A stretch of 49,986 nt of DNA from Acidobacteriota bacterium. Its GTDB lineage: Bacteria; Acidobacteriota; Thermoanaerobaculia; Multivoradales; J023. The stretch's first letter is position 1. The number at the start of each line of letters is the position of its first letter. The position numbers and the translations under genes are program-made. Under the pieces are notes generated by a model. That model was not told the origin of the DNA. It ran no database searches and worked only from the letters and a program-made list of their open reading frames with translations. The stretch is from positions 1 to 49,986 of the forward strand of contig JAJCXO010000209.1 in the NCBI GenBank assembly GCA_029263395.1. Direction: 5' to 3'. Of this stretch, positions 28,395-43,437 are shown one piece after another.

Positions 28395-30520
28395 GAGCTG
28401 CCGATCAGCGCCTTGGCGTGATTTCTGTGCCGCTGATCCGGGCAATGCTTCATGATCCACTCGAATTTCTCCTGGGCGGTATTCGACTCTCCGAGTTCCA
28501 CTCGCAAAGCCAGCAATGCGACGTGGGCTTGCCAGTATTCACTCTCGATTTCGATCGAGCGATCAAGCAGCAGCTCGGCTTCATCGTGATCCTGGCGCTG
28601 CAGGGCGAGAACCGCCAGATTGAACAACGCTTTGGCGTGGAATGGGTGATAGCTGAGCAGAGTGCGCAACAGCTCTTCGGCCCGTTGCCCGTTGCCCGCT
28701 TCACCATGATGGATAGCTAGGCTGAGCAGAGCCAGGTCGAACCCTGGCTCCAGCTCCAAAGCTTGCTCGAGCTCTTCAACTCGTAGGGCATCGTTGCCCG
28801 TGGCGTAGTGCATCTCGGCAAGCAGATAGTGGCCATAAGCTGTGGCGTGAGACCTCACCAGTTTCTTGGTGAGCGTCATGGCCCGTTCTCTTTCTCCGGC
28901 GATGAACAGGCGCTTGGCGACCACCAAGAAGACACTGTCATTTTGAGAGATTAGCGTGTCGGCCTGCTCTGCTACCTGCGCCGCCTGGTCGAGCTGTCCG
29001 AGGCCGAAATAGGACAAGGCCAGCAGCCCCCGATAGTAGCCATTGGCAGTGTCGCGGCCAACCAACTCGGTTGCCATTTCCCGAGCCAAGAGGAATTGCT
29101 TGCGGTCGAGGGCTTGTTTCGTTCGGCTCGACAGGCTGATGTCTTGGATACGGTCTTGAGGCGGGATGCCATCTTCACGAAGCCCTTCGTTGACGCCAGT
29201 CTCGGAGCCAGTGACCGAGAGATAGCCGAGAGCTGCCAGGCGTTGCCGGGTAGTGGAATCGATCTCGTTCACGGATTCCGAAGACTCAGCACTGGCATAA
29301 CGTCGAATAAACGCTTCGAGCAGCAGCTTCATCTCGGCGGCGGTCTCGGGGTCTTCAACGGTCAGGTCCGCGAGTTCATTCGGGTCCGCCGCCAAGTCAT
29401 AAAGCTCCGGTCGCGGCCCGTGGATGTATTTATGATCGCGGTAGAAGAGAGCCCTGATTTCGCCCCAGCCGTGGGAGAGACGAGGCGACAGGGTCTCGGC
29501 ATAAAGCGGCCTCGCGCGACTCGAGGGCTCGCCGGACTTGATCAGGGGCACCAACGATTCGCCTTGGAGGCCTTCTGGCCAAGGGATGGAGAGCAAGTCG
29601 AGAATCGTCGGCATGATGTCGACGCTCGAAACCTTCTCTTGAATCCTCTTGCCGCCTTGTTGCCCAGGGATCCTGACGATCAAGGGGACATGTAGTGTCG
29701 CGTTGTAGGCGAGTAGCGAGTGAGAGTCTTCGCGGTGTTCGCCATGGCCTTCACCGTGGTCGGCGGTCATGACGATCAAGGTGCGATCGAGGACTCCCTG
29801 GCGTCGCAGCTCATCAAGCACCCGTCCCAGGCTGTGGTCTGCCTGGGAGATCTCGCCCAGATAGAGGTTGTGGGCAAAGGTCTGATTGTAAGGAGCGACG
29901 GGAATCAATGGCTGATGAGGATCCCAATAGTGGATCCAGGCAAAGAAGCGGCCGCCGGCATTGCTTCTCAGGAAGGGCACGATCGCGTCGTTGACGTGGG
30001 GAGCGGGTCGTTCGTCGAAATAGAGGCCATCGGGCTCGGCTGTGAGCTGGCCTTGAAAGTCCTGGCGGCCCGCGGAAATGCGATCGTCATAGAAGTCGAA
30101 ACCCTGATCAAGTCCGAACTCGCGGGTTAGCGGAAAGGCTCCGATCGCCGCACCGGTGACGAAGCCACGCTCGCTGAGCACTTCCGCCAACGTGATCCTG
30201 GCGGATGGCAGCTTGAAGGTGCCGTTGTCACGAACGCCATGGGCCAGGGGATAGGTGCCAGTGAACATCGAAGAGTGGGACGGCAGCGTGATGGGGGCGG
30301 TGGCGAAGGCCTGCTCGAAGAGGAAACCTTCGGCGGCCAGAGCGTCGAGCGTAGGCGTTTGGGAGTCTTCGTTGCCATAACAACCGAGGGCGTCGGCGCG
30401 AGTGGTATCGAAGGTGATGAAGAGCACGTTCCAGTCGTTCGCCGGCTTCGCACATCCCAGGTTGAGCAGTGCAAGCAGGGACAGGCTGGCTAGTGCCGTC
30501 AGCGAAGCCAGACGAATCAT
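28391..30520 (-). CDS. Sulfatase-fold hydrolase/transferase fused to TPRs, lipoprotein (locus A)
   Basis: A 709-residue lipoprotein (LSLLALLNLGC, Cys23). Residues about 30-400 have the alkaline-phosphatase/sulfatase fold: metal ligands in FITFDTTRAD, DPHQP and TADHGEGHGEH, and a long match to sulfatase-like proteins. The position of the nucleophile reads ITLPSHSS with Thr78 where sulfatases have the Cys or Ser that becomes formylglycine. Thr is the nucleophile in lipoteichoic-acid synthase and some phosphodiesterases of the same superfamily, so phosphotransfer or phosphodiester cleavage is plausible and sulfatase activity is not. Residues about 470-709 contain TPRs (YYRGLLALSYFGLGQLDQAAQVAEQAD; AKALFNLAVLALQRQDHDEAELLLDRSIEI). 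Substrate unknown. Its paralogue is at 46851-48986; both precede and overlap a parvulin gene. Confidence 0.88.
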   Translation of the reverse strand: MIRLASLTALASLSLLALLNLGCAKPANDWNVLFITFDTTRADALGCYGNEDSQTPTLDALAAEGFLFEQAFATAPITLPSHSSMFTGTYPLAHGVRDNGTFKLPSARITLAEVLSERGFVTGAAIGAFPLTREFGLDQGFDFYDDRISAGRQDFQGQLTAEPDGLYFDERPAPHVNDAIVPFLRSNAGGRFFAWIHYWDPHQPLIPVAPYNQTFAHNLYLGEISQADHSLGRVLDELRRQGVLDRTLIVMTADHGEGHGEHREDSHSLLAYNATLHVPLIVRIPGQQGGKRIQEKVSSVDIMPTILDLLSIPWPEGLQGESLVPLIKSGEPSSRARPLYAETLSPRLSHGWGEIRALFYRDHKYIHGPRPELYDLAADPNELADLTVEDPETAAEMKLLLEAFIRRYASAESSESVNEIDSTTRQRLAALGYLSVTGSETGVNEGLREDGIPPQDRIQDISLSSRTKQALDRKQFLLAREMATELVGRDTANGYYRGLLALSYFGLGQLDQAAQVAEQADTLISQNDSVFLVVAKRLFIAGERERAMTLTKKLVRSHATAYGHYLLAEMHYATGNDALRVEELEQALELEPGFDLALLSLAIHHGEAGNGQRAEELLRTLLSYHPFHAKALFNLAVLALQRQDHDEAELLLDRSIEIESEYWQAHVALLALRVELGESNTAQEKFEWIMKHCPDQRHRNHAKALIGSS

Positions 30521-30586: not shown

Positions 30587-32194
30587 TCAGGAATGGACGG
30601 GCTCGAAGCCTGCCGCGAAACGGAACTCCAGGTCCTTGAGGATCGACGCATACAGTTGTTTACCCGCGGCTTTCTTCGCTCGCGTTCGGAGCAAGGCCTC
30701 GATTTGTGGTTTGGACTGCTCGAAGTCGAGCACGGTCTCGGGCTCGATCGACAACACCTTCACTAGGTGCAAAGCCTGGCCCTCCTGCATCCACGATGTT
30801 GCTTGGCCTACCTCGAGGGGGCGTAAGGCATGGTCGACGTTGAGTCCGAGGAGCCAGACCTGGCGATCAGTCAGCTTGCCCAGATCACGACGAGTTACGG
30901 CAGTCCCCAAATCACGCTCGACCTGCTCGAAGTCGATCTTGCCAGCCGCGGCGAGCTCACCGAGCTCATGAGCGGCCTGGTAGAAGGCCGCGGGAAGGGC
31001 AGGATCGATGACCAGCTTCAGGGAGTCGAGATGACGCTTCCGAGGCCGAACGAAGAGCCTCTGCCTGGAGTCGAAGAAAGCCCGCACTTGTCGCGAATTC
31101 GGCTGTTGAGTCAGTGGGATGGCCAGAACATTTGCGGCCAGCTGTGCCTCTAGCTTCTCGACGGCCTGCCGCTCTTGGTCGACGGCCTGTGGCGTCTTGT
31201 TGAGGCCAAGGAGGCGGGACTCGATGGCTCGAGCTCGCAGCAGTCGGCGATCGGTGGCCGTTGAGGCGTCGCTGGCAGTCTCCGCCAACAGGCGAGCATC
31301 GAGCCTTTTGTTCAGTTTCTCCAGCTGCCTCTTACGCCAACGTTCACGCAGATTGGCCTCGGCTTGTTCGAAGGATCGGGTATCTGGCTCGATCACCTCA
31401 TCGACCAGGAGCAGGGTCAGTCCTTCGCGGGTCTCGAGGATCGGGCTCAGATCCCCAGGTCCAAGCGAAGCCAAGGCCTCAGCGATCGGTTTGTCGAGGC
31501 GGTCGAGGGTCACCATGCCGATGGCGCCACCGCGTCTGCCAGTGGCCGAGTCCGAGTACTGCCTGGCAAGGCTGGCGAAGTCTTCACCCTGCTGGATTCT
31601 CGTTCGCAGCAAACTCATACCCCGCTTCAAGCCTTCCCTTTGAGCCTGATCGGCATCTTTGGGAAGTCGACGGTAGAGATTTCTTACCCGCCAACGACGC
31701 TGTCTTGACGTTTCGCCTATCGAGGTGAAGAGCTGCCTTAACTCTTCTGGCTCAGGCTGGCGCAGAGTCGAGGCGAGGTGGCGAGGAAGAAGCGCTGCGG
31801 CTAGGCGATCGAGAATCAACGTTCGTTCATTCTTGAAGGCGGGAACCTCGCTAAGACCGCTTTCGTGAAACCGACGGCTCAGCTCGCGGCGAACCACTAA
31901 ATCTTGGGCTGCGTGTCGGAGCTTTTCTAGCTCGACGCAGTTTCTTTTCTCGAGCGCGCACCAGGCGAGCAACTCTTGCTTCAGGACCGAGGTCTGTCGA
32001 GTGCGAGCGACGACGGTGTCAGGTATTGCCTGCCCTGTCACAGGTGAAGCGTGAGTTTCAGAAGCGAGTGGCGCGGAACCCAAGACCAGCCCGGTTAGAG
32101 ATAGATGGCAGAAAAGCAGAAGCGCCAGACTTCGGAGTCTGGCGCTCTGTTGAAGCTTGACGCTTCGGTTTTGGATGTCGTCTCGTCCAGGCAT
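30587..32194 (-). CDS. Secreted parvulin-type isomerase next to the PVELM-tail gene (locus A)
   Basis: A 535-residue protein. The N-terminus (about 19-45) is a signal peptide (SLALLLFCHLSLTGLVLG). The parvulin domain is near residues 165-270 (WRVRNLYRRLP; FASLARQYSDSATGRRGGAIGM; LDKPIAEALASLGPGDLSPI; LLLVDEVIEP), and a second similar unit follows near 380-500 (RKRHLDSLKLVIDP; GQALHLVKVLSIEPE). It matches the SurA/PpiC pattern. The ATG at 32194 follows a small hairpin, and another 11-bp hairpin lies in codons 17-25, so translation may be dampened. The gene follows the PVELM-tailed protein gene by 41 nt and precedes the sulfatase-like gene by 66 nt, so these are probably one transcript. Confidence 0.82.
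   Translation of the reverse strand: MPGRDDIQNRSVKLQQSARLRSLALLLFCHLSLTGLVLGSAPLASETHASPVTGQAIPDTVVARTRQTSVLKQELLAWCALEKRNCVELEKLRHAAQDLVVRRELSRRFHESGLSEVPAFKNERTLILDRLAAALLPRHLASTLRQPEPEELRQLFTSIGETSRQRRWRVRNLYRRLPKDADQAQREGLKRGMSLLRTRIQQGEDFASLARQYSDSATGRRGGAIGMVTLDRLDKPIAEALASLGPGDLSPILETREGLTLLLVDEVIEPDTRSFEQAEANLRERWRKRQLEKLNKRLDARLLAETASDASTATDRRLLRARAIESRLLGLNKTPQAVDQERQAVEKLEAQLAANVLAIPLTQQPNSRQVRAFFDSRQRLFVRPRKRHLDSLKLVIDPALPAAFYQAAHELGELAAAGKIDFEQVERDLGTAVTRRDLGKLTDRQVWLLGLNVDHALRPLEVGQATSWMQEGQALHLVKVLSIEPETVLDFEQSKPQIEALLRTRAKKAAGKQLYASILKDLEFRFAAGFEPVHS
32120..32145 (-). terminator. Perfect 11-bp hairpin inside the start of the parvulin gene
   Basis: On the minus strand AGCGCCAGACT pairs with AGTCTGGCGCT around a CCGA loop, followed by TCTGCTTTTC. 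The shape is that of a Rho-independent terminator with an interrupted U-run, but it lies in codons 17-25 of the parvulin gene at 30587-32194. It could attenuate transcription from the PVELM gene into the downstream genes. Coding constraint alone does not explain an exact 11-bp palindrome. Confidence 0.5.
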
Positions 32195-32235: not shown

Positions 32236-32982
32236 CTAGTCCACGTCGAATTGCATCAACTCGACGGGAAGATTGTCACCGCTGACGCGGAAGATGGCGT
32301 TCTGGCCCGGAATCGCTGCGCCAACAGAATTGACTGTGACGACCGACGTCGGATTGAAAGGACCGGTGAAGAGAAGGCGAGCCGCATTAAAACCCGAGCC
32401 AGGATCAGCGGCGCCTTCGGTCAGAGCCACACCGTCACATGAGCTGTTCAGGTTCGTGTTGCCGCCGCAGCCATCATAGAAAGTGTTGCGCACCCCGGCG
32501 ATGAAAGAGCCACTGTGGCTGAGCACCGGAGCAGCCAGCGGAACCTGCACTGTGGCATCGGTAATCACTCCGCTGCCACCGAAAACAATTCCGGGGACAC
32601 CGTTGACGACCTGGCGTTGAAGCACTGTGGCATTTCCGGCAACGGAGTCGACGTTCCAAACCGTCATGACGACCGAGCCAACCGTGCCGGCAGCGATGTA
32701 GTTGCCAGCAACTTTGAAGCTCACGGAATTGATGGAGTGAGTCCCCGCCGGGTTGAAGCGGTTTCCTATCAAGCCATCGTCCTGACCGTCCCGCTGGAAA
32801 GGAACGTTGTTGTCGAAGGTGATGGTACCGGTGCCGAAGCGCTCCCCCGATTTGTGAAGAGTCGCCGAAGACCTCTTCACGTGATCAGGTGCGGTTCGTT
32901 GAGCGCCTTGCTGAGCAAGACTGATCGACGCCAAACCAGCAGTGAGCAGACAGGCAGTGAGAGCTAGTGCCGCTCTTCTCAT
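32236..32982 (-). CDS. Small secreted protein with C-terminal PVELM tail (locus A)
   Basis: A 248-residue protein with a Sec signal peptide (ALALTACLLTAGLASISLA, cleaved near QQG). AAGGTGG precedes the ATG at 32982. The mature part is rich in Gly, Thr, Asn, Val and Ser and looks like a beta-sandwich; it includes a Cys pair region (YDGCGGNTNLNSSCDG). The last 12 residues are LPVELMQFDVD after FRVSGDN. The protein encoded at 40418-41218 aligns along its length and ends VPVELMRFSVD; the last 20-odd residues are the most conserved part. I do not recognise this tail among the sorting signals I know. The gene heads a probable transcript with a parvulin, a sulfatase-like and another parvulin gene. 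Confidence 0.8.
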   Translation of the reverse strand: MRRAALALTACLLTAGLASISLAQQGAQRTAPDHVKRSSATLHKSGERFGTGTITFDNNVPFQRDGQDDGLIGNRFNPAGTHSINSVSFKVAGNYIAAGTVGSVVMTVWNVDSVAGNATVLQRQVVNGVPGIVFGGSGVITDATVQVPLAAPVLSHSGSFIAGVRNTFYDGCGGNTNLNSSCDGVALTEGAADPGSGFNAARLLFTGPFNPTSVVTVNSVGAAIPGQNAIFRVSGDNLPVELMQFDVD

Positions 32983-33368
32983 GTGACCACCTTTTGAGAC
33001 GGAATAGATTAGGTCGCCACGCTTGACGAAGAGCCGGTAAATTAGCCGATAAAGCGGTCTGTGGTCAACGCCAGAAATCCCTTTCCGGGTAGGTAATTAG
33101 CCTGTGTACGGGTTCAGCGGAAAGACGATTTTTGGGTTTTGTGTTTTACGGAAAGATCATCGATCAAGTAACGGCGGAATCGAAAGAATCAGGTAGGTGA
33201 AGAGCTTGAATTTGCCTTCGCCTCCCTGGATGGGTGACGGGCACGTATTCGGTGTGCAGCCAATAGAGTCAGGCTGGCACGAGCGCCTTAGGCAGCACGG
33301 ACGATCCGCGAGAGGTCCCGCGGCGGCCGAGCGGCATGGTGTCCTACACATCGTCGAGGACTACGGGC
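32983..33368. other. Intergenic region upstream of the PVELM gene, with a duplicated GGTAATTAGCC element
   Basis: No gene seen. Two copies of a near-palindromic element, GGTAAATTAGCC (33036-33047) and GGTAATTAGCC (33092-33102), lie 55 bp apart in the leader of the gene that starts at 32982. A TTGACC on the minus strand (33068-33063) lies between them and could be a -35 box, but no good -10 is at the right distance. The rest of the region holds only shadows of the neighbouring FG-GAP gene. Confidence 0.5.
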
Positions 33369-35039
33369 TCAAGGCGAGGGATAGACGATCTTCCAGGCGC
33401 GGTCGAGCTTGCGGGTGCGGGCGGTTTGTCGACTGCCGTCGGGCCAGCGAATCCGGACTTCGACTTCGCCAAGGAAGGTGCCGAGGCCAAAGTGCGGGCG
33501 AAGGTCCGATTGGCTGAGCACACTGCCTCCGCTCCGTACCTCTCGCACCTGAGTCCGCTCACCTGCTTGTAGCTCGACCCTGGCGCCGATCGCATGCCGA
33601 TTGAGGGCCGGGCCGACCAGCTCCAGACTGATCCAATGGTGGCTCGACGCCGTTCGATTCTCGAGCAATGCTGGTCTGCCGCCTGTGTGTGTCACCAGCA
33701 GATCGATGCGACCGTCGCCATTAAAATCACCGCTCGCCAGACCGCGGCTGACAGCGTCCTGGCTCGAGATCCCCGAGGCTTTGGCCTCGCGAAAACGGCC
33801 GGCACCGTCGCCCAGGAAAAGCTGATCGGGTTGGGCGTAGCTCACCCCGGGCACGAAGCGCTCGATGTTGTCCATCACATGACCGTTGGCTACTGCCAGG
33901 TCGAGGTCGCCGTCATTATCCGCGTCGAAGAGTTCGACGCCCCAACCCAGACGGCGATAGGAGGCGGCATGCAGCCCGGACTCACGGGTGCGATCGTCGA
34001 AAAGGCCCTCACCTAGATTCTTGTAGAGACTGTTGGGCTCGAGGGAAAAATTGGTTACCACCAGATCGCTGAGACCGTCGCCGTCGAGATCACCCAACGC
34101 CACGCCCATGCCGGCCAGCGGCTCGCCGGCCTCACCGAGCGACGCCCCTGAGAGCAGGGAAACGTCTTCGAAACGGCCGTGTCCGTCATTCAGATAAAGA
34201 CGATTCGGCGTGCCGTCGTTGGCGACGTAGAGGTCGAGATCGCCGTCGACATCGAGGTCGGCCAGCGCGACGCCCAGGCCTTTCTCGCTGGTCTCGCGGC
34301 TGATGCCACGCTCGGCGGCCAGATCCCTAAAAACGCCGTCGCCGCCGTTGATGAAAAGCGCGTCTGGACGGCCGGGGAAGCGGGTCGGATGACAGTAATA
34401 GTCCAGCTTGCGGGCACGGTCGACGCAGCGCGGGTGGTCCTCGTAAGAGAACGCCACGTAGCGACTGACGTAGAGGTCGAGGTCGCCGTCGCCGTCGACG
34501 TCTCCAAAGGCGCAGCCGACGCTCCATTGCTCCCCGCCGTCGACGCCGGCGCGGGCCGATACCTCTTCGAAACGGCCTTCTTCGAAAGGGCTACCGCCAA
34601 GACCGCGATAGAGTCGATCCGGGCCGACATTGGTGACGAAGAGGTCGAGACGGCCATCGCCGTCAGCGTCACCTACGCACATGCCCATGCCGTAGCCGTC
34701 ATCGGCGACTCCAGCGCGCGCCCCAACCTCGACGAAACGGCCGTCGCGATTCTCGAATAGGGCGTTGCGCGGAGTCCGAGTCAGCTTCGAGCCGGGGGTT
34801 GCGGCGCCATTCAGCAGGTAGATGTCGAGATCGCCGTCGGCGTCGAAATCGAAGAACCCGCCGCCGCTGGCCACGGTTTCGATGAAATAGCGACGACCTG
34901 ACCGGCCGTCTTGATGCCGAAAATCCAGCCCAACGTCCGCTGCCACGTCGACGAAGCTAGTCGGTACGGCTGGCGGCGGCACGGCCGGCGGCAAGGCCAA
35001 CGGTGGCACGGCGAGCAGGAGGAGCAGCAGCGAATTCAC
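33369..35039 (-). CDS. CRTAC1-type FG-GAP/ASPIC-UnbV protein (locus A, second copy)
   Basis: A 556-residue exported protein with a hydrophobic, Pro-rich N-terminus (LLLLLAVPPLALPP). Seven Asp-rich FG-GAP/VCBS repeats with calcium-binding-like motifs (DADGDLDIYL, DADGDGRLDLFV, DVDGDGDLDLYV, DLDVDGDLDLYV, DLDGDGLSDLVV, DADNDGDLDLAV, DFNGDGRIDLLV) form a probable seven-bladed propeller. The last 90 residues are an ASPIC/UnbV domain (HAIGARVELQAGERTQVREV; VRIRWPDGSRQ). This is the CRTAC1 family, thought to bind partners outside the cytoplasm. Its ATG overlaps the stop of the TPR gene by 4 nt, so the two are translated together. Function in bacteria is not established. Confidence 0.9.
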   Translation of the reverse strand: MNSLLLLLLAVPPLALPPAVPPPAVPTSFVDVAADVGLDFRHQDGRSGRRYFIETVASGGGFFDFDADGDLDIYLLNGAATPGSKLTRTPRNALFENRDGRFVEVGARAGVADDGYGMGMCVGDADGDGRLDLFVTNVGPDRLYRGLGGSPFEEGRFEEVSARAGVDGGEQWSVGCAFGDVDGDGDLDLYVSRYVAFSYEDHPRCVDRARKLDYYCHPTRFPGRPDALFINGGDGVFRDLAAERGISRETSEKGLGVALADLDVDGDLDLYVANDGTPNRLYLNDGHGRFEDVSLLSGASLGEAGEPLAGMGVALGDLDGDGLSDLVVTNFSLEPNSLYKNLGEGLFDDRTRESGLHAASYRRLGWGVELFDADNDGDLDLAVANGHVMDNIERFVPGVSYAQPDQLFLGDGAGRFREAKASGISSQDAVSRGLASGDFNGDGRIDLLVTHTGGRPALLENRTASSHHWISLELVGPALNRHAIGARVELQAGERTQVREVRSGGSVLSQSDLRPHFGLGTFLGEVEVRIRWPDGSRQTARTRKLDRAWKIVYPSP

Positions 35040-36355
35040 AGCACGCTCCTCGGCGGCAGACCTCGGGCGCGCCGGAAGCCGTCCACGGCCGGTGATCGCT
35101 CCGGCGCATGGTCCAACAGATCGGAGGCGGCTTGGCGATTCCCCGCAGCCAGACGCAGGTCAGCGAGCTCGAGCCGGCAAGGCACATTCCACGGTGCTAG
35201 CTCGAGGGCGTGGGAGAGCGCGGCCGCCGCGCCATCCATATCGCCTTCGGCGCGCTCGAGGCGACCGAGCAGAAGATGGTAGCGGGCAAGGTGGGGATCC
35301 ATTGCGAGACCCGCCTCGAGCAGCTCTCGGACTTCGTCCAGGTCGTCTCCCGACTCGGCGGCCAGCAGTGCCGCCACCAGGCCGCCGCGCGCTCGGCGGC
35401 TGTCGGGCGTTTCCCGCAACCCTTGCCGATAAAGATGCATTGCCGCAGCGCGCTCTCCGCGCCGCCAGAGCACATCGGCGAGCTCGAGACCCTCGCCGCC
35501 GCCGATCGTCTCGAGCACTGCGGGCAAGTCGTCCAGTGCCTGGTCGATGAAACCGGCCTCGAGGCGCAAGCGACAGATGAGCTGGCGCACCCGCGGCGAT
35601 TCTCGCGGCAGATCGGAACCCAGCGCTTCCAACACCCTCAAGCTTTCGATCGGCGACAGAGGGCCACCGTCCGGCCCGCCTCTCGTGAGCTGACCGAGTC
35701 CCTGGTGCACGCCGAGAGATCGTCTGGCCGCTTCTCGCTCGCTGGCGGCCAGCTGAAGGCGACCCAGCAAGTACCAATTTGATGCCCGCAGAGGATCCAG
35801 CCGCGCCGCCCGCCGGGCATGGTCGAGCGCCTTCGGCAGATCACCCAATCGTTTCGTGATCGACGCCGCCAGAGCCACAGCGCGCGAATCTGCCGGATCG
35901 AGATGGGGCTCCAGGCTCTGCCAGGCCTTCAGGGGATCCTCTGCTGCCAGGGCCTCGGCGGTAAGCAGCGCTCGCTCGGAATACGAATGGAGCTCCCGTG
36001 TGACGGCCATAGCTTTCGACCCTTCGCCGAGCAGAAGAAGATTCTGCACATACAGTCGGCGAATCTCATCATCCTGTGGAACCGTCTCCAGGTAACTCTC
36101 GAGAACCGGCAGGGCGGGCTCCAAGCTCTGCCCGGCCCCGCTCAGCCAGGCGAGCGCCAGACCGCGCTGAGACTCGAGCCGATCTGGATATTTGGCAAGA
36201 TCCAAGGCGTAGTAGACGCGCGCCAGATCGTGGCGGCCTTCGGCAAAAGCGTTGACCGCGCGCCGGTAATCGAGCTCGGGGTAAGGCGCCTGAGGAGCGC
36301 CGCAGGCAGCGAGCAACACCGCGACGGAAAGAGCTGAAAGTCTATTCATCCACAT
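35036..36355 (-). CDS. TPR lipoprotein between two CRTAC1 genes (locus A)
   Basis: A 439-residue lipoprotein (SALSVAVLLAACGAP, Cys19). The start could be the first Met (36355) or the third (36349); both overlap the end of the previous CRTAC1 gene. TPR-like units run through most of the protein (YRRAVNAFAEGRHDLARVYYALDLAKYP; ALDHARRAARLDPLRASNWYLLGRLQLAA; GLAMDPHLARYHLLLGRLERAEGDMDGAAAALSHALELAPWNVPCRLELADLRLAAGNRQAA). It should be a scaffold at the membrane. The gene overlaps both neighbours, so the CRTAC1-TPR-CRTAC1 set is one tightly coupled translational unit. Locus B has the same CRTAC1-TPR pair at 41636-45027. Confidence 0.87.
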   Translation of the reverse strand: MWMNRLSALSVAVLLAACGAPQAPYPELDYRRAVNAFAEGRHDLARVYYALDLAKYPDRLESQRGLALAWLSGAGQSLEPALPVLESYLETVPQDDEIRRLYVQNLLLLGEGSKAMAVTRELHSYSERALLTAEALAAEDPLKAWQSLEPHLDPADSRAVALAASITKRLGDLPKALDHARRAARLDPLRASNWYLLGRLQLAASEREAARRSLGVHQGLGQLTRGGPDGGPLSPIESLRVLEALGSDLPRESPRVRQLICRLRLEAGFIDQALDDLPAVLETIGGGEGLELADVLWRRGERAAAMHLYRQGLRETPDSRRARGGLVAALLAAESGDDLDEVRELLEAGLAMDPHLARYHLLLGRLERAEGDMDGAAAALSHALELAPWNVPCRLELADLRLAAGNRQAASDLLDHAPERSPAVDGFRRARGLPPRSVL

Positions 36356-38585
36356 CGGCCAAACGGCCCTCGGCTATGGGTTGTAAATCGCCGCCTTCCC
36401 GCAGATGCCAATAACGATCCATCCCGACATTCCGGAAGCTCTGCCGGAGACCGCTTGCCGGCCATAGGATCTCCAGCTCAGCCAAGGCTGTAGCGTCGCC
36501 GAGGCCAACTTCCTGGCGCAAGCTGGAAGCCCCGAAGCTGCCACCGGTGCCGACCGTGACGTGAACCTGGCGCACGCCACCCGGCGTTTCGAGCTCGAAA
36601 CGCAAGCGCGCACCGATCGCGGAGCGATTCTCCTGCACGCCTTCGAGATCGAGCGTGATCCAGCGCCGGCCATTGCCGGGATTCTCGAATAGCGCGTTCA
36701 TGAAACCGTCCCCTGAATAGGCGCCGCCGAGCACGGCGTAGAGATCCTGGTCGCCATCGCCGTCGAGGTCGCCGAAAGAGACGCCATGTCCTTTCTGCAG
36801 ATGACCGAAGCCGCCGGCGGTAGTGACATCGCCGAAGCCGCCGTTGCCCTGGTTGCGAAACATGCGATTGGGTACGACGGCACGAAGATCCGGCGCGCCG
36901 GTTCCGAGGTAAAAATCCAGCCAACCGTCATTGTCCAAGTCGCCGAAATTGGAGCCCATCACGTAGAGCACCTTGTCGAGGCCGGCGTTTTCGGTCTCGT
37001 CGCTGAACGTGCCGTCACGGTTGTTGCGGTAGAGGCGCGGCGTCTCAGCCGCCGTATTCTTGTCGCCCAGGTAGTCCGCCGCCACATTGGCCGCGCCGGC
37101 TGCCAGGTATTCTGGATCGTAGCCGGCGGCGAAGAGATCGAGCCAACCGTCGTTGTCGTAGTCGAAGAACCAAGCCGGGAAGCTGTAGAGCGGCCGCCCG
37201 ACTCCGGCTTGCTCGGTCACGTCGCGAAACCTGCGGCCGCCCTCGGGGCCCGCTTCGTTGTGCAAGAGTAGATTGGGCTCGAGCATGCGCGAGATGTAGA
37301 GGTCGAGCCAGCCGTCATTGTCGAAATCGCCCCACAGAACGGCCTTGACATAACCCTCGATCGCGGCTCCCACCTGCTTTGCAACGTCGGTAAACGTGCC
37401 GTCGCCGTTATTGCGAAAGAGCTCGCAAGGGTGGCGGTCGCCGGCCAACGATTCGTTACCGATCATCAAGTCGAGCCAGCCGTCATTATCGAAGTCGCCC
37501 CAGGCGGCGGTCTGCGTTGGATGGAAACCGAGTACGCCGGACGCCACGGTGACATCCTCGAATCGACCGCCCAGGTTGCGCAGCAGAGAATTCGGGTGGC
37601 GACCATTGGGCCCTAGCCAGGCACCGCGCAATACCAAGACATCCGCCAGACCGTCGTTGTCGTAGTCGGCGTGGATCAGGTTCAGGCCGCCGCTGATCCC
37701 TTGCAGCCCGGCGGCTTCGCTACGTTCTTCGAAGCCCAGGCCGGGGCCACCCAGGTTGCGGAAGAAACGCAGAGGGTCGAGCAGGCCCCAGGACGAGGCC
37801 ATGATGTCGAGAGCGCCGTCACCGTCGAAGTCTTCGACGATCGAGCCGCCGGCGAGCCCGAAGGCCGCGACACCTGAGGCGCCGGCCAACTCGGGAAACC
37901 TGCCCGGATCGCTGGTCGAAGCAAAGACCGTAGGCGGCACCTGCCACCTGAAATCAACGCCGTGGGGGTATTCGCCGACCGTCATCGCTGCGATGTTGAG
38001 CAACCAGCGTGCATCTAGATCGCCGGGCTCTTCTTCAAGCAGTGCCGCCAGCAGCTCGAGGGCCTGCCGAGAAGCACCCTGCCGGCGATGTACTCCCTCG
38101 GCCGAGATCGGCGCCAGGCACGACGCACTCGAGTGCTGCTCAACACAATTCTCCTGCTCGGCGAGACGCAGATAAGCGAGCGCCAGCAAAGAACGCAACT
38201 TTCGTCGCCAAGCCTTCCCGAGCGGGTCCCGCGCCAGCTCTTGCTCGAGACGGGTGATCGCCGAAGCGTTACGCCCGGCGCGCAGCTCTTCACGGGCCGT
38301 TCTCAGGATCGCGGCCGCTCGAGCCTCGGGATCGGTGGGTAGTCCCTGGGCGGCGAAGCGATCCGCGCGCAGCTCATTAAGATAGATATTATGCTGGGGC
38401 CGGGAGTTGGCGGCGAGCAGCTGCAACCTCTCGGCCATCTGGAGATTACTCTCGAGCGGTGGCGTCGCCTGTTCCTGCGGCCGGCAACCGATCGAAAACC
38501 CAACGATGAGCATACCGGCGAGCCATCCGATCGGATGTCGTCTTGCGAATTTTGCAACGAACGGTCTCTTCGAAGATGTGCGCAT
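36342..38585 (-). CDS. CRTAC1-type FG-GAP/ASPIC-UnbV lipoprotein with N-terminal helical region (locus A, first copy)
   Basis: A 747-residue lipoprotein (WLAGMLIVGFSIGC). Residues about 45-200 are helical and TPR-like (AAAILRTAREELRAGRNASAITRLEQELARDPLGKAW), which shorter CRTAC1 proteins lack. Residues about 230-650 carry seven Asp-rich FG-GAP repeats (DFDGDGALDIMAS, DYDNDGLADVLV, DFDNDGWLDLMIG, DFDNDGWLDLYIS, DYDNDGWLDLFAA, DLDNDGWLDFYLG, DLDGDGDQDLYAV), and the last 100 residues are ASPIC/UnbV (SAIGARLRFELETPGGVRQVHV; GLGDATALAELEILWP). It is the first gene of the CRTAC1-TPR-CRTAC1 set, divergent from a parvulin lipoprotein gene across about 105 bp. Confidence 0.9.
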   Translation of the reverse strand: MRTSSKRPFVAKFARRHPIGWLAGMLIVGFSIGCRPQEQATPPLESNLQMAERLQLLAANSRPQHNIYLNELRADRFAAQGLPTDPEARAAAILRTAREELRAGRNASAITRLEQELARDPLGKAWRRKLRSLLALAYLRLAEQENCVEQHSSASCLAPISAEGVHRRQGASRQALELLAALLEEEPGDLDARWLLNIAAMTVGEYPHGVDFRWQVPPTVFASTSDPGRFPELAGASGVAAFGLAGGSIVEDFDGDGALDIMASSWGLLDPLRFFRNLGGPGLGFEERSEAAGLQGISGGLNLIHADYDNDGLADVLVLRGAWLGPNGRHPNSLLRNLGGRFEDVTVASGVLGFHPTQTAAWGDFDNDGWLDLMIGNESLAGDRHPCELFRNNGDGTFTDVAKQVGAAIEGYVKAVLWGDFDNDGWLDLYISRMLEPNLLLHNEAGPEGGRRFRDVTEQAGVGRPLYSFPAWFFDYDNDGWLDLFAAGYDPEYLAAGAANVAADYLGDKNTAAETPRLYRNNRDGTFSDETENAGLDKVLYVMGSNFGDLDNDGWLDFYLGTGAPDLRAVVPNRMFRNQGNGGFGDVTTAGGFGHLQKGHGVSFGDLDGDGDQDLYAVLGGAYSGDGFMNALFENPGNGRRWITLDLEGVQENRSAIGARLRFELETPGGVRQVHVTVGTGGSFGASSLRQEVGLGDATALAELEILWPASGLRQSFRNVGMDRYWHLREGGDLQPIAEGRLADVDE

Positions 38586-38690
38586 AGGGGTTACACTGGC
38601 CGGCCCCCAAAGAGCCGCTGGACTCGGGGTCGTACGAGTATAGGTGTGATGCGTCGTGGTCGAGATCGAGAATCGCGGAGCGAGCGAAAG

Positions 38691-40346
38691 ATGCAGTCAA
38701 GAATGTTGACGGTTTTGGCGAGCTTGGTCCTGGTGGCCGCTTGTGCGCCACAATCCGCGGACGAGAAGATCCTGGCTACCTACAACGGCGGCGAGGTGAG
38801 CGAATCGGAATACCGCATGTGGCTTGTCGTGACGAAGACTGAAGACGAGTTCGAGCGGCGCCAAGAAGTGTGGACCACCCTGGCGGCCCAAGAATCCCTC
38901 GCCGAGGCCGCACGGCAGCGGTCCGCAGAGGAGAAACCCGCGGTCCGCCTGGCGCTCCTCAACCTCGAGACGCAGTTGCTCGAGAACGCATTGCGCCGCG
39001 AGGTGCAGAGTGGGATCGAGATCGATGAGCCAGAGATCGTCGAATGGCTGGCAGAGAACGGCGAGCGACTCGACCGACCGCGACGGGTGCGTCTGTCCAA
39101 TATTTTCAAACGCTTCGCGGGCGGTGAGCCCGCTGAGCTGCGCTCTCGCATGGCCGAGATTCGCCGGCAGCTGGCCGATGGCGCGGACTGGGCGGAGATG
39201 GCCCTGCGAGAGTCAGATTCCCAGACCCGCTTCCGCCACGGCCGCATCGGTCTGGTCAAACCAGGCTCTCTCGATCCGGCGGTTGAGAACGTCGCTTTTG
39301 CTCTCTCTCAGGATGAGATCAGCGATGTGATCGAGACCGAAGATGGCCTGACCTTGCTGCGTTGTGACGGTGTTGAGGAGCAAATCCGAACCGCTGCGGC
39401 ACAGAAGCGGGAGCGGGCTGAGCAAGCCCTGCGCCAGAAACAGGGGCGGTTGGAATGGAGTGAACTCGAAGCCGAGCTGCTAGAGTCGGTGTCACTCGAT
39501 CTGGCGGCCGCTCAGCTGGTCAGCACTAGCGACAACGCGATCGTTGCCAGGTCTGAAGAGGGCTGGAGCCTATCGCTCTCGGAGCTGAGACATTTGCTTG
39601 GCTTTCGCGGCGTTGCCCGTCACCCGGCAGACCTACCGCAGGAGCGTGCCGGGAAATGGATCCACGCGGTCGCGGTGCAGCTGCAAGCGGCGCAGCATGC
39701 CCGTTCTCTCGGTCTCGATCAGGATCCCGACGTGCGCGCCAAGCTGCATTGGCGGACCACGTTGACCCTGGCGGCTGATGAGCTAAAGAAGAGGGTGGAA
39801 GAGCGGTTTAATGCCTTGGGAGAAGACGAGATTCGGGCCTATTTTCAGCAGAATAAAGAACGCTTCGAAGTGTCGGAGACCTTCCGCGTCGCGGCCATCT
39901 CGATGCGCGCTCAGCGCGAGGAACTGAGACAGAAATGGCTGCTCGGGCAGCGGCTCGAGGCCGATTTACGGGCCGGCCGCCTCAGCTTCGACGAAGCGGC
40001 GGAGACCTATTCGGAGCTTCCGTCAAAAAGCCGCGGTGGTCTTCTCGGCTGGCTCGACCGTCAACAGCTGGCTGCCCTCGGCCCCCATGTCTTCAAGGCC
40101 GTCAAGGACTTGTCCCCTGGAGATGTTGGCCCTCTCGTGCAACAGCCCGACGCGTTGCCTTCGACCGGCAACTCGCTGTGGATCCTCGAGCTTCTCGACC
40201 GCCGGCCGGCGCGGCCCATGAGCTTCGAAGAGGCACGCCACCAGGCCGAAAATGCGCTGGGTAACGAGCGGACGCGCGAGCACCAAAAACAGCTCGAAGA
40301 AGAGCTGCTCGCCCGGCTAGATGTCACACCGGTAGGCCAGAACTAA
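38691..40346 (+). CDS. Parvulin-type isomerase lipoprotein (stand-alone)
   Basis: A 551-residue lipoprotein started at the ATG at 38691 (MLTVLASLVLVAAC, Cys about 18); an ATG at 38649 would add a charged segment. The open frame extends further 5' through the divergent CRTAC1 gene but is not coding there. The parvulin domain is near residues 140-235 (WAEMALRESDSQTRFRHGRIGL; LDPAVENVAFALSQDEISDVI; LLRCDGVEE). A second partial unit near 400-520 (VSETFRVAAISMRAQREELR; SPGDVGPLVQQPDALPSTGN) follows a helical linker. The organisation is SurA-like. It is transcribed away from the CRTAC1-TPR-CRTAC1 set and toward the PVELM-tail gene of locus B, separated from it by a terminator hairpin. Confidence 0.85.
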   Translation: MQSRMLTVLASLVLVAACAPQSADEKILATYNGGEVSESEYRMWLVVTKTEDEFERRQEVWTTLAAQESLAEAARQRSAEEKPAVRLALLNLETQLLENALRREVQSGIEIDEPEIVEWLAENGERLDRPRRVRLSNIFKRFAGGEPAELRSRMAEIRRQLADGADWAEMALRESDSQTRFRHGRIGLVKPGSLDPAVENVAFALSQDEISDVIETEDGLTLLRCDGVEEQIRTAAAQKRERAEQALRQKQGRLEWSELEAELLESVSLDLAAAQLVSTSDNAIVARSEEGWSLSLSELRHLLGFRGVARHPADLPQERAGKWIHAVAVQLQAAQHARSLGLDQDPDVRAKLHWRTTLTLAADELKKRVEERFNALGEDEIRAYFQQNKERFEVSETFRVAAISMRAQREELRQKWLLGQRLEADLRAGRLSFDEAAETYSELPSKSRGGLLGWLDRQQLAALGPHVFKAVKDLSPGDVGPLVQQPDALPSTGNSLWILELLDRRPARPMSFEEARHQAENALGNERTREHQKQLEEELLARLDVTPVGQN

Positions 40347-40365
40347 ACCGGTAGGCCTGAAATGA
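40328..40365. repeat. 19-bp tandem duplication at the parvulin gene end
   Basis: ACCGGTAGGCC begins each unit (40328 and 40347). The first unit includes the stop codon of the parvulin gene. Confidence 0.6.
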
Positions 40366-40367
40366 AA

Positions 40368-40391
40368 CGGGCGCGTCCTAAGACGCGCCCG
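40368..40391. terminator. Bidirectional terminator hairpin between convergent genes
   Basis: CGGGCGCGTC (40368-40377) pairs perfectly with GACGCGCCCG (40382-40391) around a CTAA loop. It lies between the parvulin gene (stop 40346) and the PVELM-tail gene (stop 40418), which converge here. The flanking U-runs are modest. Confidence 0.65.
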
Positions 40392-40417
40392 CTGGACCGC
40401 TTTCCTCGAGTCGTTTT

Positions 40418-41218
40418 TCAGTCGACCGAAAAGCGCATCAGCTCTACGGGCACCAGACTGCCGGTGGCGCGCAACATCGCGTTGGCAGTGGTGTTCGGAG
40501 TGAAATTACCGCCACCAAAATCTTCGATCGCCATACCGTGATTGCCTTGCCCGGCCACCGTGCCGGCATTGTCGAAGCCGACGCAATCGGTGGCGCAGGG
40601 GTTAGTTCCCGCGGTGGAACCGGCCGTCGGATTCCAGATACCGGCCATGAAATTGAGATTGGTGCCGGTGATCGTGGTGGCGATCGCGATCGTATTGAAG
40701 GCGCCGGCCTGAAGACCGGCGATGTTAGCCGACTTGAGTGACGGTGCCACGGTACCCACGGGCGGGCCGAAGATGGTGGCAAACGCGCCGCCCGTGCCGG
40801 TGGTGTCGCCGTCAACGATCGCCATGAAAGCGGTCAGCTGAGTGATTGTGACCGTATTTTTCGTGCCGCCGATGGGGTCACCGTTGACCGAATCGAAATG
40901 ATTGCCGAAAGAGAAGTTGTCGGCAACGGCCGGGATTGTACCCACACCGGTGAAGGTGCCGGTGTCATAGGTGATTGAGATATTCACGGTCCTGGCCGGC
41001 ACCGAGTGTTTCGTGCCGGTTCTGAGGGTGCCCTGGAAGCCTGGCCCCGCGGTGGCCGAGTCTGCATTTTTCAGCGCCTGGGCCGCTGCTTGTCGCTCGG
41101 CTTTGGACATCCCGGAGAACTCATCCGGGGTGATGTTCTTTCCCACGTTCTCTGCCGTCACGTGGATGGCGCCAGCGACGAGTAGTGCCAAAATCAAAAC
41201 TAAGGCTGTCTTCCGCAT
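40418..41218 (-). CDS. Small secreted protein with C-terminal PVELM tail (locus B)
   Basis: A 266-residue protein. The ATG at 41218 follows CAGGAGATGTC and begins a signal peptide (TALVLILALLVAGAIHVTA). The mature N-terminus has a short helical segment (TPDEFSGMSKAERQAAAQAL); the rest is Gly/Thr/Asn/Ala-rich and probably a beta-sandwich, with a Cys pair (NPCATDCVG). The end is VPVELMRFSVD, preceded by AMLRATGSL. It is homologous to the protein at 32236-32982, most clearly in this tail and in the MAG/IAG-x-N-to-Cys-pair region. The gene is divergent from a CRTAC1 gene and convergent with a parvulin gene. It is a candidate substrate of the surrounding export and folding proteins. Confidence 0.82.
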   Translation of the reverse strand: MRKTALVLILALLVAGAIHVTAENVGKNITPDEFSGMSKAERQAAAQALKNADSATAGPGFQGTLRTGTKHSVPARTVNISITYDTGTFTGVGTIPAVADNFSFGNHFDSVNGDPIGGTKNTVTITQLTAFMAIVDGDTTGTGGAFATIFGPPVGTVAPSLKSANIAGLQAGAFNTIAIATTITGTNLNFMAGIWNPTAGSTAGTNPCATDCVGFDNAGTVAGQGNHGMAIEDFGGGNFTPNTTANAMLRATGSLVPVELMRFSVD

Positions 41219-41635
41219 GACATCTCCTGAGTACAAGAGCGCCATATAGCTCGGGCGGATCAAACACAGGCCCGCTCATTTCGAGTAGGGCATGGTAGAT
41301 CGAAGCTAAGGTGCTCCGGTTGGGCTTCCACGATCACCAACGTAGTGGCGAGAGCTTGTGGCCTATGAATGAACCAGCGGAGACAGTACCACGGGCCTGC
41401 CGACCGGACAAGCGCTATAAGGCCTGGCTGGCACGCTACACTGCGTTCCATGGAAAGCTCCAAGTCAGCGCACACCCTGCGCCGCAGCAGCACGGGGGCT
41501 AGGGTCTCAGGGCCGCGTCCTCAGGCGGCGAGTTGCCACATGAGTCGCGGTCGTGACCGCGAGAATCCCCCTCTAGCTCCCCCTTTTCCAAAGGGGGAGG
41601 ACCAGAAACCACCCAGACCGTTTTCGCTGCCTTCA
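41219..41635. other. Divergent intergenic region with a REP-like element
   Basis: No gene seen. Frames running through it into the CRTAC1 gene cross the G/C-run palindrome at 41561-41600, which argues against them being coding. Promoters for the PVELM-tail gene (minus) and the CRTAC1-TPR pair (plus) should be here; I see no clear one. Confidence 0.55.
41561..41600. repeat. G/C-run palindromic repeat element (REP/MITE-like), partial copy
   Basis: GAGAATCCCCCT followed by CCCCCTTTTCCAAAGGGGG resembles one half of the element at 23752-23843. It lies 36 bp before the CRTAC1 gene start. Confidence 0.6.
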
Positions 41636-43435
41636 ATGGATGTTTGTTTTTTTCCGTGGCCTTTGGTTCTTGCCTTGCTCTTCGGGGCGCATCTCGCCTG
41701 CGGGACACCTGCTGTCTCGCCTGTCACCGACAACCCTTCCGGAGGCCTTTTGCACGACGCCACCTCAGCGAGCGGCCTCGACTTCCATCATTTCAACGGC
41801 ATGTCCGGTGAGCACTATTTCAACGAGGTGGTGGGCGCCGGCGCCGCCTTCTTCGATTTTGACAATGACGGTGACCTGGATCTCTACCTGGTCCAGGGTG
41901 CCATGCTGGGGCCGGGTAAAGAGCTGACCGACGCGCTCTTCCCGCCTGCGAAGGAAGGGCCACCGCGTGATCGCCTTTATCGCAATGACCTGAAGGGTAG
42001 CGGTCCCCGATTCGTTGATGTCACCGAGACGTCTGGATTGACCGCATTCGGCTACGGCATGGGGGTGGCCACCGGCGATTTTGACAACGACGGCTGGCTC
42101 GATCTCTACGTCACCAACTATGGCGCCAATCAACTGTGGCGTAATCTCGGACTGGACGAGCATGGGGGCGTGAGCTTTGAAGACGTCACCCGGAGCAGCG
42201 GCGCCGGTGACGACCGCTGGTCGACCAGCGTCGCGGTGCTCGATTTCGACCGCGACGGCTGGCTCGATCTCTACGTCACCAACTATGTCGATTTTCGTTT
42301 CGAGAATCACCGCTACTGCCGCAGCCCTTCGAGCCGGCGTGACTATTGCGGTCCGCAGAACTACAACGGCGAGAGCGATTTGCTGTTGCGCAATCTTGGA
42401 CCCGGCGAAGCGGGGGCGATCCTTTTCGAAGATGTGACGCTCGCGGCCGGTATCGGCCGTGAGGCGGGCAGCGGCTTGGGAGTGGTCAGCGGCGACTTCG
42501 ACGGCGACGGTTGGCTCGACCTCTATGTCGCCAATGACTTGATGCACAATGTGCTGTGGAGAAATCTCGGCGATGGCAGCTTCGAGAACGTGGCTTTGGT
42601 CTCCGGAGTGGCGGTGAACGCCGCTGGCAAGGCGGAGGCGAGTATGGGATTGGCGGCTGGTGACCTGGACCAGGATGGTGATGAGGATCTGTTCATGAGT
42701 CACCTTCGAGGTGAGACCAATACCGCTTTTGAAAACACTGGCGGCGATTTTCACGATGCCTCCTCGGCCATGGGACTGGCGGTGGCCAGCCGGTCGTTCA
42801 CCGGCTTCGGTGTTGGTGTTTTTGATCTCGAGAACGATGGCGATTTGGACCTCGCGGTGGCCAACGGCGACATCATGGTGATCGAGCAGCAGCTCCTGGC
42901 CGGTGAGCCTTTTCCACTGCGCCAGCCGAATCAGCTCTTTCGCAACCTCGGAGACGGCGAATTCTCCGAGGTTGGAGCCGAGCTCGCGGGTTCCGCCTTG
43001 GCCGCTCTCGAGACAAGCCGCGGCCTGGCGGTGGGCGATGTCGATAATGACGGCGATGAAGATCTGCTGCTCACCAATAACAACGGCCCGGCCAGATTGC
43101 TGGTGAATGAGGCCGCGGACGGCTCCGCGTGGGTGGGGTTGCGGCTCATCACCGAAGGCCGCGACGCCCTCGGCGCACGGGTGACGGCTCATTTCACCGA
43201 CGGATCGCGACTGATGAGGCGAGTACGGACCGACGGCAGCTATTGCTCGGCACGGGACCCGCGCGTGCTCTTCGGGCTGCCGGCGGGAAAGGAGCTGCGT
43301 TCGATCGAGGTGCAGTGGCCGGACGGCCTCGAAAGCTGGCCACCGCTGGCGCCGGGGCAATACCATCGGTTGATCCGAGGTCAGTCGTCCGCCTCAGGTT
43401 CGGGCGATCTTGCTGCCGCAGCAGTAGGTGGGTAG
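41636..43435 (+). CDS. CRTAC1-type FG-GAP/ASPIC-UnbV lipoprotein (locus B)
   Basis: A 599-residue protein started at the ATG at 41636, where a signal peptide begins (FFPWPLVLALLFGAHLAC, possible lipobox Cys near 24). No clear Shine-Dalgarno is seen, and the frame stays open far upstream through a repeat element. Seven Asp-rich FG-GAP repeats follow (DFDNDGDLDLYL, DFDNDGWLDLYV, DFDRDGWLDLYV, DFDGDGWLDLYV, DLDQDGDEDLFM, DLENDGDLDLAV, DVDNDGDEDLLL), then an ASPIC/UnbV end (DALGARVTAHFTDGSRLMRR; RSIEVQWPDGLESW). It is the paralogue of the two CRTAC1 genes of locus A and, as there, is followed closely (2 nt) by a TPR lipoprotein gene. Confidence 0.88.
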   Translation: MDVCFFPWPLVLALLFGAHLACGTPAVSPVTDNPSGGLLHDATSASGLDFHHFNGMSGEHYFNEVVGAGAAFFDFDNDGDLDLYLVQGAMLGPGKELTDALFPPAKEGPPRDRLYRNDLKGSGPRFVDVTETSGLTAFGYGMGVATGDFDNDGWLDLYVTNYGANQLWRNLGLDEHGGVSFEDVTRSSGAGDDRWSTSVAVLDFDRDGWLDLYVTNYVDFRFENHRYCRSPSSRRDYCGPQNYNGESDLLLRNLGPGEAGAILFEDVTLAAGIGREAGSGLGVVSGDFDGDGWLDLYVANDLMHNVLWRNLGDGSFENVALVSGVAVNAAGKAEASMGLAAGDLDQDGDEDLFMSHLRGETNTAFENTGGDFHDASSAMGLAVASRSFTGFGVGVFDLENDGDLDLAVANGDIMVIEQQLLAGEPFPLRQPNQLFRNLGDGEFSEVGAELAGSALAALETSRGLAVGDVDNDGDEDLLLTNNNGPARLLVNEAADGSAWVGLRLITEGRDALGARVTAHFTDGSRLMRRVRTDGSYCSARDPRVLFGLPAGKELRSIEVQWPDGLESWPPLAPGQYHRLIRGQSSASGSGDLAAAAVGG

Positions 43436-43437
43436 AC

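Follow-up and report, generated by a model that had tools for sequence, protein, structure and literature searches.

The 49,986-nucleotide stretch analysed here (the window) comes from an Acidobacteriota genome of the Thermoanaerobaculia type and encodes two secreted proteins that end in the same short tail, PVELM-x-F-x-VD. This PVEL tail is a real, modular, lineage-restricted C-terminal signal, for which a role in sorting, processing or targeting fits best. Within one group of bacteria from soil and water it has the look of an address label that had no name before, and a family of double parvulins encoded beside it is a strong candidate for its partner. The two proteins, members of a family designated T1, and their tails are as follows.

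32236..32982, minus strand: secreted T1-family protein P0001, an open frame with an N-terminal signal peptide-like start and a PVEL tail.
32239..32268, minus strand: C-terminal tail PVELMQFDVD of P0001, from frame reading and the motif count.
40418..41218, minus strand: secreted T1-family protein P0002, an open frame with a signal peptide-like start, a PVEL tail and a structure model.
40421..40450, minus strand: C-terminal tail PVELMRFSVD of P0002, the last eight residues having a predicted local distance difference test score (pLDDT) of about 32 in the model.

Frame reading confirmed what an earlier, sequence-only reading had reported: P0001 ends in DNLPVELMQFDVD (LPVELMQFDVD, then stop) and P0002 in SLVPVELMRFSVD (VPVELMRFSVD, then stop). 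The homology it had claimed over the mature part also held, the two bodies being 25% identical (alignment A2). Across the 10 sequences of that alignment, P257-V-E-L-M261 and F263 were invariant. The motif P-V-E-L-x-x-F occurred twice in the window against 0.10 expected, and none of 100 shuffles reached two. In the genome of origin (10.68 Mb, 291 contigs, 96.3% complete), PVELxxFx[VIM] gave eight matches and the reversed control pattern one. When the frames of the eight were read, five were exactly terminal, one carried a 16-residue extension, and two lay inside long frames and look like chance. A sixth terminal tail, LPVELISFELE, was recovered with the T1 body profile.

The terminal position was then apparent over a wider set covering the genome of origin, its order and one distant genome. 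The comparison of terminal with internal occurrences rests on pattern matches and fetched stretches rather than a whole proteome: 80 stretches around matches in 15 match-bearing relatives, and pattern loci for eight genomes (three overlapping), with the relatives' matches read in part and those of genus g7 mostly unread. Searching loci L001 to L228 with P[VIA]EL..F.[VIMLAT] gave 172 distinct motif frames, of which 112 stopped one residue after the 9-mer, 12 after two and four after three, making 128 within three residues; 44 stopped later. By comparison, 30 loci taken from elsewhere in the phylum held 16 motif frames, none ending within three residues. Conservation at the exact C-terminus, which the sequence-only reading had likened to a sorting or processing signal, was thus borne out.

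After removal of one 13-residue frame and two ending in KL, 125 terminal frames were kept, at least one of which, a 73-residue frame from a Puniceicoccales record (L122), is probably a chance match. Their last 24 residues all differ, and they follow the motif [VLTI]-P-V-E-L-[MQL]-x-F-x-[VI]-[DE], with the stop one to three residues after; the residue directly after the 9-mer is E or D in 107 of the 125. Taking a single protein from each cluster gives the consensus [VLT]-P-V-E-L-[MQL]-S-F-S-[VI]-[ED], in which P, E, L and F were imposed by the search pattern. In T1 proteins found by the body profile, where only P.EL was required, the second position was V in 35, I in two and A in one, and F was present in 38/38. 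Distant tails ending PVELLEASVE and PVELMRFSAE show that neither F nor V/I is strictly invariant. Codons vary at every tail position, so selection acts on the protein.

Some look-alikes were set aside. Two C-termini, PVELDFFQVQKL in genome G003 and a relative in G004, stop three residues after the motif and were excluded from the counts, as we take them to be the unrelated end of NusG. A NusG-like C-terminus, GRQTPVELDFFQVQKL, at L014/L046 and L049 likewise bears a chance resemblance to the tail and has to be left out of counts. Separately, some tails run on for 14-44 mostly charged residues, for example DGDTEQEQGDGKGKT (L002 557-982, L039 3651-4097, L040, L057 and L068), mainly in a short family ending DGLPVEL.

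Among 98 relatives, the motif was strongly enriched over the control in only part of the order (14 vs 0 in G023, 11 vs 0 in G007, 12 vs 3 in G010 and 6 vs 0 in G005); G002 (2 vs 3) and most genus g7 genomes (0-2 matches) were without enrichment. The most terminal tails read in a single genome was 13, in G023. Across 297 sampled genomes of the phylum, those outside the order had 0-4 matches each, mostly unread, except the distant G276 (14 vs 2 control), and a phylum-wide spread was rejected on these counts. A frame of G276 at L223 1577-2686 ends in SLPVELTSYEVY, a tail variant with Y replacing F and no acidic end. When PVELM-Ser(AGC)-Phe(TTC) was sought in 84,980 species, 22 stretches came back, of which 17 bore Acidobacteriota-type titles (Thermoanaerobaculia, Thermoanaerobaculales, Holophagae, Holophagales, Acidobacteria or Acidobacteriota), two were titled "uncultured bacterium" and three had other titles. 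All 19 frames of the first two groups stop one or two residues after the motif. As for the others, the Flavobacterium and Oscillospiraceae frames (41 and 38 residues) run 14-15 residues past it, and the Puniceicoccales frame (73 residues, without a signal peptide) stops two residues past it.

The bodies that carry the tail are diverse. The 114 tail proteins with frames of at least 110 residues fell into 49 BLAST body clusters at E 1e-3 (42, 8, 7, 4, 3, 3, 2, 2, 2 and 2 members, plus 39 singletons), some of which distant homology could merge. A Sec-like, signal peptide-like start was present in 108 of the 114 by a crude, permissive hydrophobicity rule, and some of the other six may be truncated where a stretch or contig stops. 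Scanning 65 tail proteins for known families gave matches that include the lamin-tail domain (LTD; four proteins), the P-domain (four) and choice-of-anchor Q (two), as well as the GloVer choice-of-anchor repeat, DNRLRE, CSLREA, SBBP, NHL and FG-GAP; propeller proteins are among the bodies. As their names say, the choice-of-anchor families are domains that occur with differing anchors, and these cargo classes, choice-of-anchor Q included, are typical of sorted proteins. Among the 14 NCBIfam families matched by the 65 proteins, no tail or sorting-signal model could be placed on the tail, and four tail fragments matched no NCBIfam tail model, although matches this short can be lost in HMMER filtering. 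The tail counts as conserved because unrelated proteins share it, beyond the two window homologues; homology is limited to the C-terminus among otherwise unrelated proteins of one genome.

A second line of evidence came from the T1 body, whose profile ended before the tail, so that the tail was not used in the search. It found 43 proteins, 41 complete and two cut by stretch ends. Of the complete ones, 38 had a P[VIA]EL tail, one had neither type, and two (L168 and L169) ended in an IPTL-like membrane tail, VPVLGWKGMLLLSALLAGLAFVALRTKS and its relative, each preceded by a weak DUF11-type repeat match. The L168 tail scored below threshold in NCBIfam (IPTL_CTERM 14.1 of 20.5 bits, midcut-by-XrtH 15.3 of 45), and that of L169 had no NCBIfam IPTL/XrtH match. 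On the same body, the PVEL tail thus alternates with another, IPTL-like anchor signal (2/41 complete proteins).

These results bear directly on the structural edge strand of one domain family, which the sequence-only reading had put forward as the main alternative. The homology of the two window proteins would suit it, as would the cluster holding 42 of the 114 longer tail proteins, yet there are 49 body clusters where a single domain family had been the point of concern. The Pfam domain also stops before the tail in all three clear cases (P-domain 58-173 of 189 residues; LTD 652-764 of 837 and 531-648 of 721), and the IPTL-like swap occurs on the same body. From the 49 clusters and the swap we conclude that the tail is a modular C-terminal signal and not the edge strand of one domain, an explanation we now regard as extremely improbable. 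In the structure prediction proposed with the original observation, residues 259-266 of P0002 (the 40418-41218 model) showed no strand (pLDDT about 32), but the entire model is weak (mean 58.7) and that of a P-domain tail protein (mean 34.2) was unusable for tail structure. A fold search with the T1 model found nothing at E ≤ 0.001 (best 3.3e-3) and is not interpretable, because the underlying model is weak.

Comparison with known C-terminal signals placed the tail outside the tripartite sorting signals. PEP-CTERM, GlyGly-CTERM, MYXO-CTERM and LPXTG signals combine a motif, a membrane helix and basic residues, as two papers describe them (PMC3237569, PMC11980579). The same papers indicate what the PVEL tail shares with PEP-CTERM/exosortase, GlyGly-CTERM/rhombosortase, MYXO-CTERM/myxosortase and LPXTG/sortase: short C-terminal homology on unrelated exported proteins, lineage restriction, and many targets for one handler (PMC3237569, PMC11980579). 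It differs in having neither the membrane helix nor the basic cluster, and in ending mostly in D/E; a transmembrane-like stretch was found in the last 45 residues of 2/115 tails, and at least two K/R among the final 10 residues of 0/115. Judged by sequence, the tail, which the earlier reading had set apart from LPXTG, PEP-CTERM, IPTL-CTERM and MYXO-CTERM, belongs to none of the tripartite CTERM classes. IPTL-CTERM (TIGR04174) is a membrane-helix tail with another motif, unlike the PVEL tail, and in L168 and L169 the T1 body ends in a tail that resembles it, the sub-threshold match being confined to L168. The literature searched held no description of the PVEL tail; 2024 work on new Cys-type signals was outside that scope. 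Exosortase (PF09721) was rejected as a tail partner because its distribution in the 98 genomes does not track the tail: it was present in 55, many of them without read tails, and was not found in the tail-bearing G008, G021, G023, G059 and G061, the first three of which are tail-rich.

Secretion systems without a membrane-type signal were also considered. Type I secretion substrates are not known to carry an N-terminal Sec signal peptide, in contrast to the Sec-like starts of the tail proteins. The C-terminal domains (CTDs) of the type IX secretion system (T9SS) are non-membrane signals of surface proteins, as the PVEL tail would be, but they are immunoglobulin (Ig)-like domains of about 70-100 residues, whereas the tail has 10. 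We regard it as very improbable that the tail derives from, or is related to, the LPVELxSF strand of Bacteroidota and uses a T9SS-like system. The two resemble each other in sequence, but nothing follows the motif here. SprA was matched in 0/98 related genomes, though no control genome matched either, so that this result does not establish absence. One Flavobacterium genome gave six nucleotide matches (two in the control) and four readable frames, none ending within three residues, a weak check.

The lack of a membrane helix would also suit an uncleaved docking strand that inserts, by beta-augmentation of the donor-strand kind, into an Ig-like or beta-sandwich fold left incomplete in a surface scaffold, so that diverse proteins are held on a single polymer or receptor. 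The hydrophobic residues alternate (V-L-x-F-x-V) and the tail is unpacked in the weak model of its own body, both of which agree with such a strand; no receptor was identified, however, and the starting proline and linked peptidyl-prolyl isomerase (PPIase) are compatible with it yet not required. We consider this explanation unlikely.

The candidate partner emerged from the gene neighbourhood, which in the window comprises four parvulin, two sulfatase-TPR-like, three FG-GAP/ASPIC, two TPR and two tail proteins.

26670..28460, minus strand: parvulin lipoprotein of family R, a candidate tail-handling partner (Pfam Rotamase_2 1.4e-17, one PPIase domain; full-length match to profile R at 5e-194, of which it is itself a row).
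28391..30520, minus strand: sulfatase/alkaline-phosphatase-superfamily protein with TPR and a Thr in ITLPSHSS (frame reading, family search, Pfam).
30587..32194, minus strand: second parvulin-domain protein, adjoining P0001 (Pfam Rotamase_2 8.6e-20, two stretches).
33369..35039, minus strand: FG-GAP/ASPIC-UnbV protein (Pfam).
35036..36355, minus strand: TPR protein with a lipobox-like start (frame reading, Pfam).
36342..38585, minus strand: FG-GAP/ASPIC-UnbV protein with a lipobox-like start (frame reading, Pfam).
38391..40346, plus strand: double-parvulin lipoprotein, convergent with P0002, its start probably near 38691 (Pfam, profile R).
41369..43435, plus strand: FG-GAP/ASPIC-UnbV protein (Pfam).
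43129..45027, plus strand: TPR lipoprotein, its start probably near 43432 (Pfam).
45082..46854, minus strand: double-parvulin lipoprotein with which the first phylogenetic-profile search was made (Pfam, profile R).
46869..48974, minus strand: second sulfatase-TPR-like protein, 48% identical to that at 28391-30520 (sequence comparison).

Genes of this module recur jointly in varying order, with a nearly full set in the window and L182. Clustering the neighbours in the 80 stretches showed parvulins, sulfatase-TPR proteins, Ser/Thr kinases and TPR proteins to be the most recurrent, and a search with the window genes (E ≤ 1e-15) found parvulins in 15/80, sulfatase-TPR in 14/80, FG-GAP in 12/80 and TPR in 7/80. 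The same clusters bear on the idea that a periplasmic protease reads the tail as a tag for degradation, release or quality control. A short C-terminal tail, unpacked in one weak model, would fit such a tag, but no recurrent protease was recognised beside the parvulins, sulfatase-TPR proteins, kinases, FG-GAP proteins and TPR proteins that recur most as neighbours, and a membrane-type tail replaces the PVEL tail on homologues; we judge this explanation quite improbable.

Parvulin genes of family R lay within 6 kb of a read tail in 25 of 39 cases, against 0.58 expected. Among the matches listed, this distance also held for 18/32 sulfatase-TPR genes of at least 512 bits and 7/11 of 361-512 bits, compared with 2/32 low-scoring paralogues (a control made up of matches of at most 361 bits in the tail-bearing genomes treated); only the better orthologues are linked to tails. 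Again among the matches listed, 29/32 high-scoring sulfatase-TPR genes lay within 1 kb of a parvulin. As a phylogenetic marker, the sulfatase-TPR gene was rejected as too common (91/98 genomes at 1e-60). The double-parvulin profile R (alignment A4) was found at E ≤ 1e-40 in 21/25 tail-bearing genomes and 0/30 without a read tail (Fisher 1.5e-11), and at E ≤ 1e-30 in 22/25 and 4/30 (Fisher 1.8e-8), both values ignoring relatedness; the 55 genomes were picked with tail status known, and some pattern matches in the 30 are unread. Tail and parvulin differ together within three genera (G010/G025, G031/G018 and G005/G003).

Across the 297 phylum genomes, long R matches at E ≤ 1e-40 occurred in G000, G007, G012, G276 and G079, with one of 315 residues in G105. 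The distant G276 has both tail and R, its parvulin loci encoding T1-like proteins that end LPAELIQFSVQ and LPVELLEASVE. In G079, a frame beside the parvulin ends in NVPVELMRFSAE and matches the T1 profile at 4.5e-8, a profile that includes the tail; its tail reads FSA, which is why it gave no pattern match, and the R search thereby found a tail that the pattern had missed. Haft and Varghese proposed that a handler is revealed by the conserved neighbours of its targets in genomes with few targets (PMC3237569). Genomes with few known tails likewise keep the tail gene beside R, namely G031 (R only, the sulfatase match being on another contig) and G067 (R and sulfatase). By its sequence associations, R is a candidate co-distributed handler family.

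Several observations weigh against this assignment. The four tail-less genomes with matches at E ≤ 1e-30 have open frames of 302-492 residues, and weaker long R matches (E 1e-31 to 1e-38) occur in five genomes without a known tail (G158, G173, G234, G248 and G309), two fetched loci of which (L235 and L236) showed no tail. Conversely, G038 (99% complete) has terminal tails and no R at 1e-30, R was not found in G020 (module cut by a contig end) or G061 (70% complete), and G042 has a match of only 1.2e-36. Moreover, 14/39 R genes are not near a read tail, all 11 rows of the R profile come from tail-bearing genomes (7/11 from loci with a tail gene), and the genomes, being related, do not count as independent samples. 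It may be the T1 body family, and not the tail itself, that R follows. The data hold no physical link between tail and parvulin, and neither structure model is good.

On balance we favour, with moderate confidence, the explanation that the tail is a modular recognition signal of Thermoanaerobaculia-type Acidobacteriota for sorting or processing, bound by double parvulins that hand the cargo to the module for the surface. Cargo would pass the inner membrane through Sec, and double-parvulin lipoproteins in the periplasm would bind the free C-terminal peptide through the Xaa-Pro bond and the hydrophobic residues V-L-F-[VI]; a proline tag adjoining a dedicated prolyl isomerase suggests such recognition. 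They may serve as chaperones or prolyl isomerases, like SurA for outer-membrane proteins and NifM for NifH, and would pass cargo to the sulfatase-like TPR, FG-GAP/ASPIC and TPR proteins, which would deliver it to the cell surface or attach it there, possibly with cleavage or covalent linkage.

SurA binds peptides of outer-membrane proteins and acts on their behalf. The window parvulins are distinguished from both SurA and NifM by two PPIase stretches (Rotamase_2) in 5/6 family members scanned with Pfam and by several copies beside tail genes. Two of them scored to NifM, PrsA, SurA and other PPIase models, all NCBIfam scores being far below cut-off. In the parvulin profile alignment, a Cys stands at residue 20 (lipobox position) in 9/11 rows, and His152 and His237 are present in 10/11 and 9/11, which we take to be consistent with an intact parvulin core. 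NifM and NifH set an example of a PpiC-domain protein whose single client bears a proline: PMC12691677 describes NifM as a maturase required by NifH, with Pro256 of NifH the more likely target and isomerase activity not definitively shown there.

A fuller picture, which we offer tentatively as possible rather than probable, is a new envelope targeting system of Acidobacteriota in which a membrane-free proline tag is sorted by parvulins through recognition of the prolyl bond, and a Thr-nucleophile sulfatase-TPR protein attaches or modifies cargo at the outer membrane. Sulfatases have Cys or Ser at the nucleophile position; the sulfatase-like proteins had Thr at the presumed place in 21/27, the motif was not found in five, and the match lay elsewhere in one. 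A role in phospho-transfer or hydrolysis is possible. If true, a large, mostly uncultured phylum would have a C-terminal targeting signal without the motif, helix and basic plan of sortase-type signals, and prolyl isomerases would be suggested as readers of an address tag. Cargo could be annotated by the rule [VLTI]PVEL..F.[VI][DE] followed by a stop, and the partner genes would be named: double parvulins, the sulfatase-like TPR protein and the FG-GAP/ASPIC proteins.

Three minor observations concern the module. From 26670 to 48974 the window has the appearance of a repeated, partly inverted module (sulfatase-TPR, parvulins, TPR, FG-GAP/ASPIC and a tail protein), as if there were one copy per tail protein. 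Ser/Thr kinase-like genes stand near tail genes in 10/80 stretches (L043, L059, L062, L067, L071, L074, L082, L095, L102 and L111). Finally, the parvulin matches at G000:C105, G005:C234, G007:C2 and G008:C42 read through one TGA.

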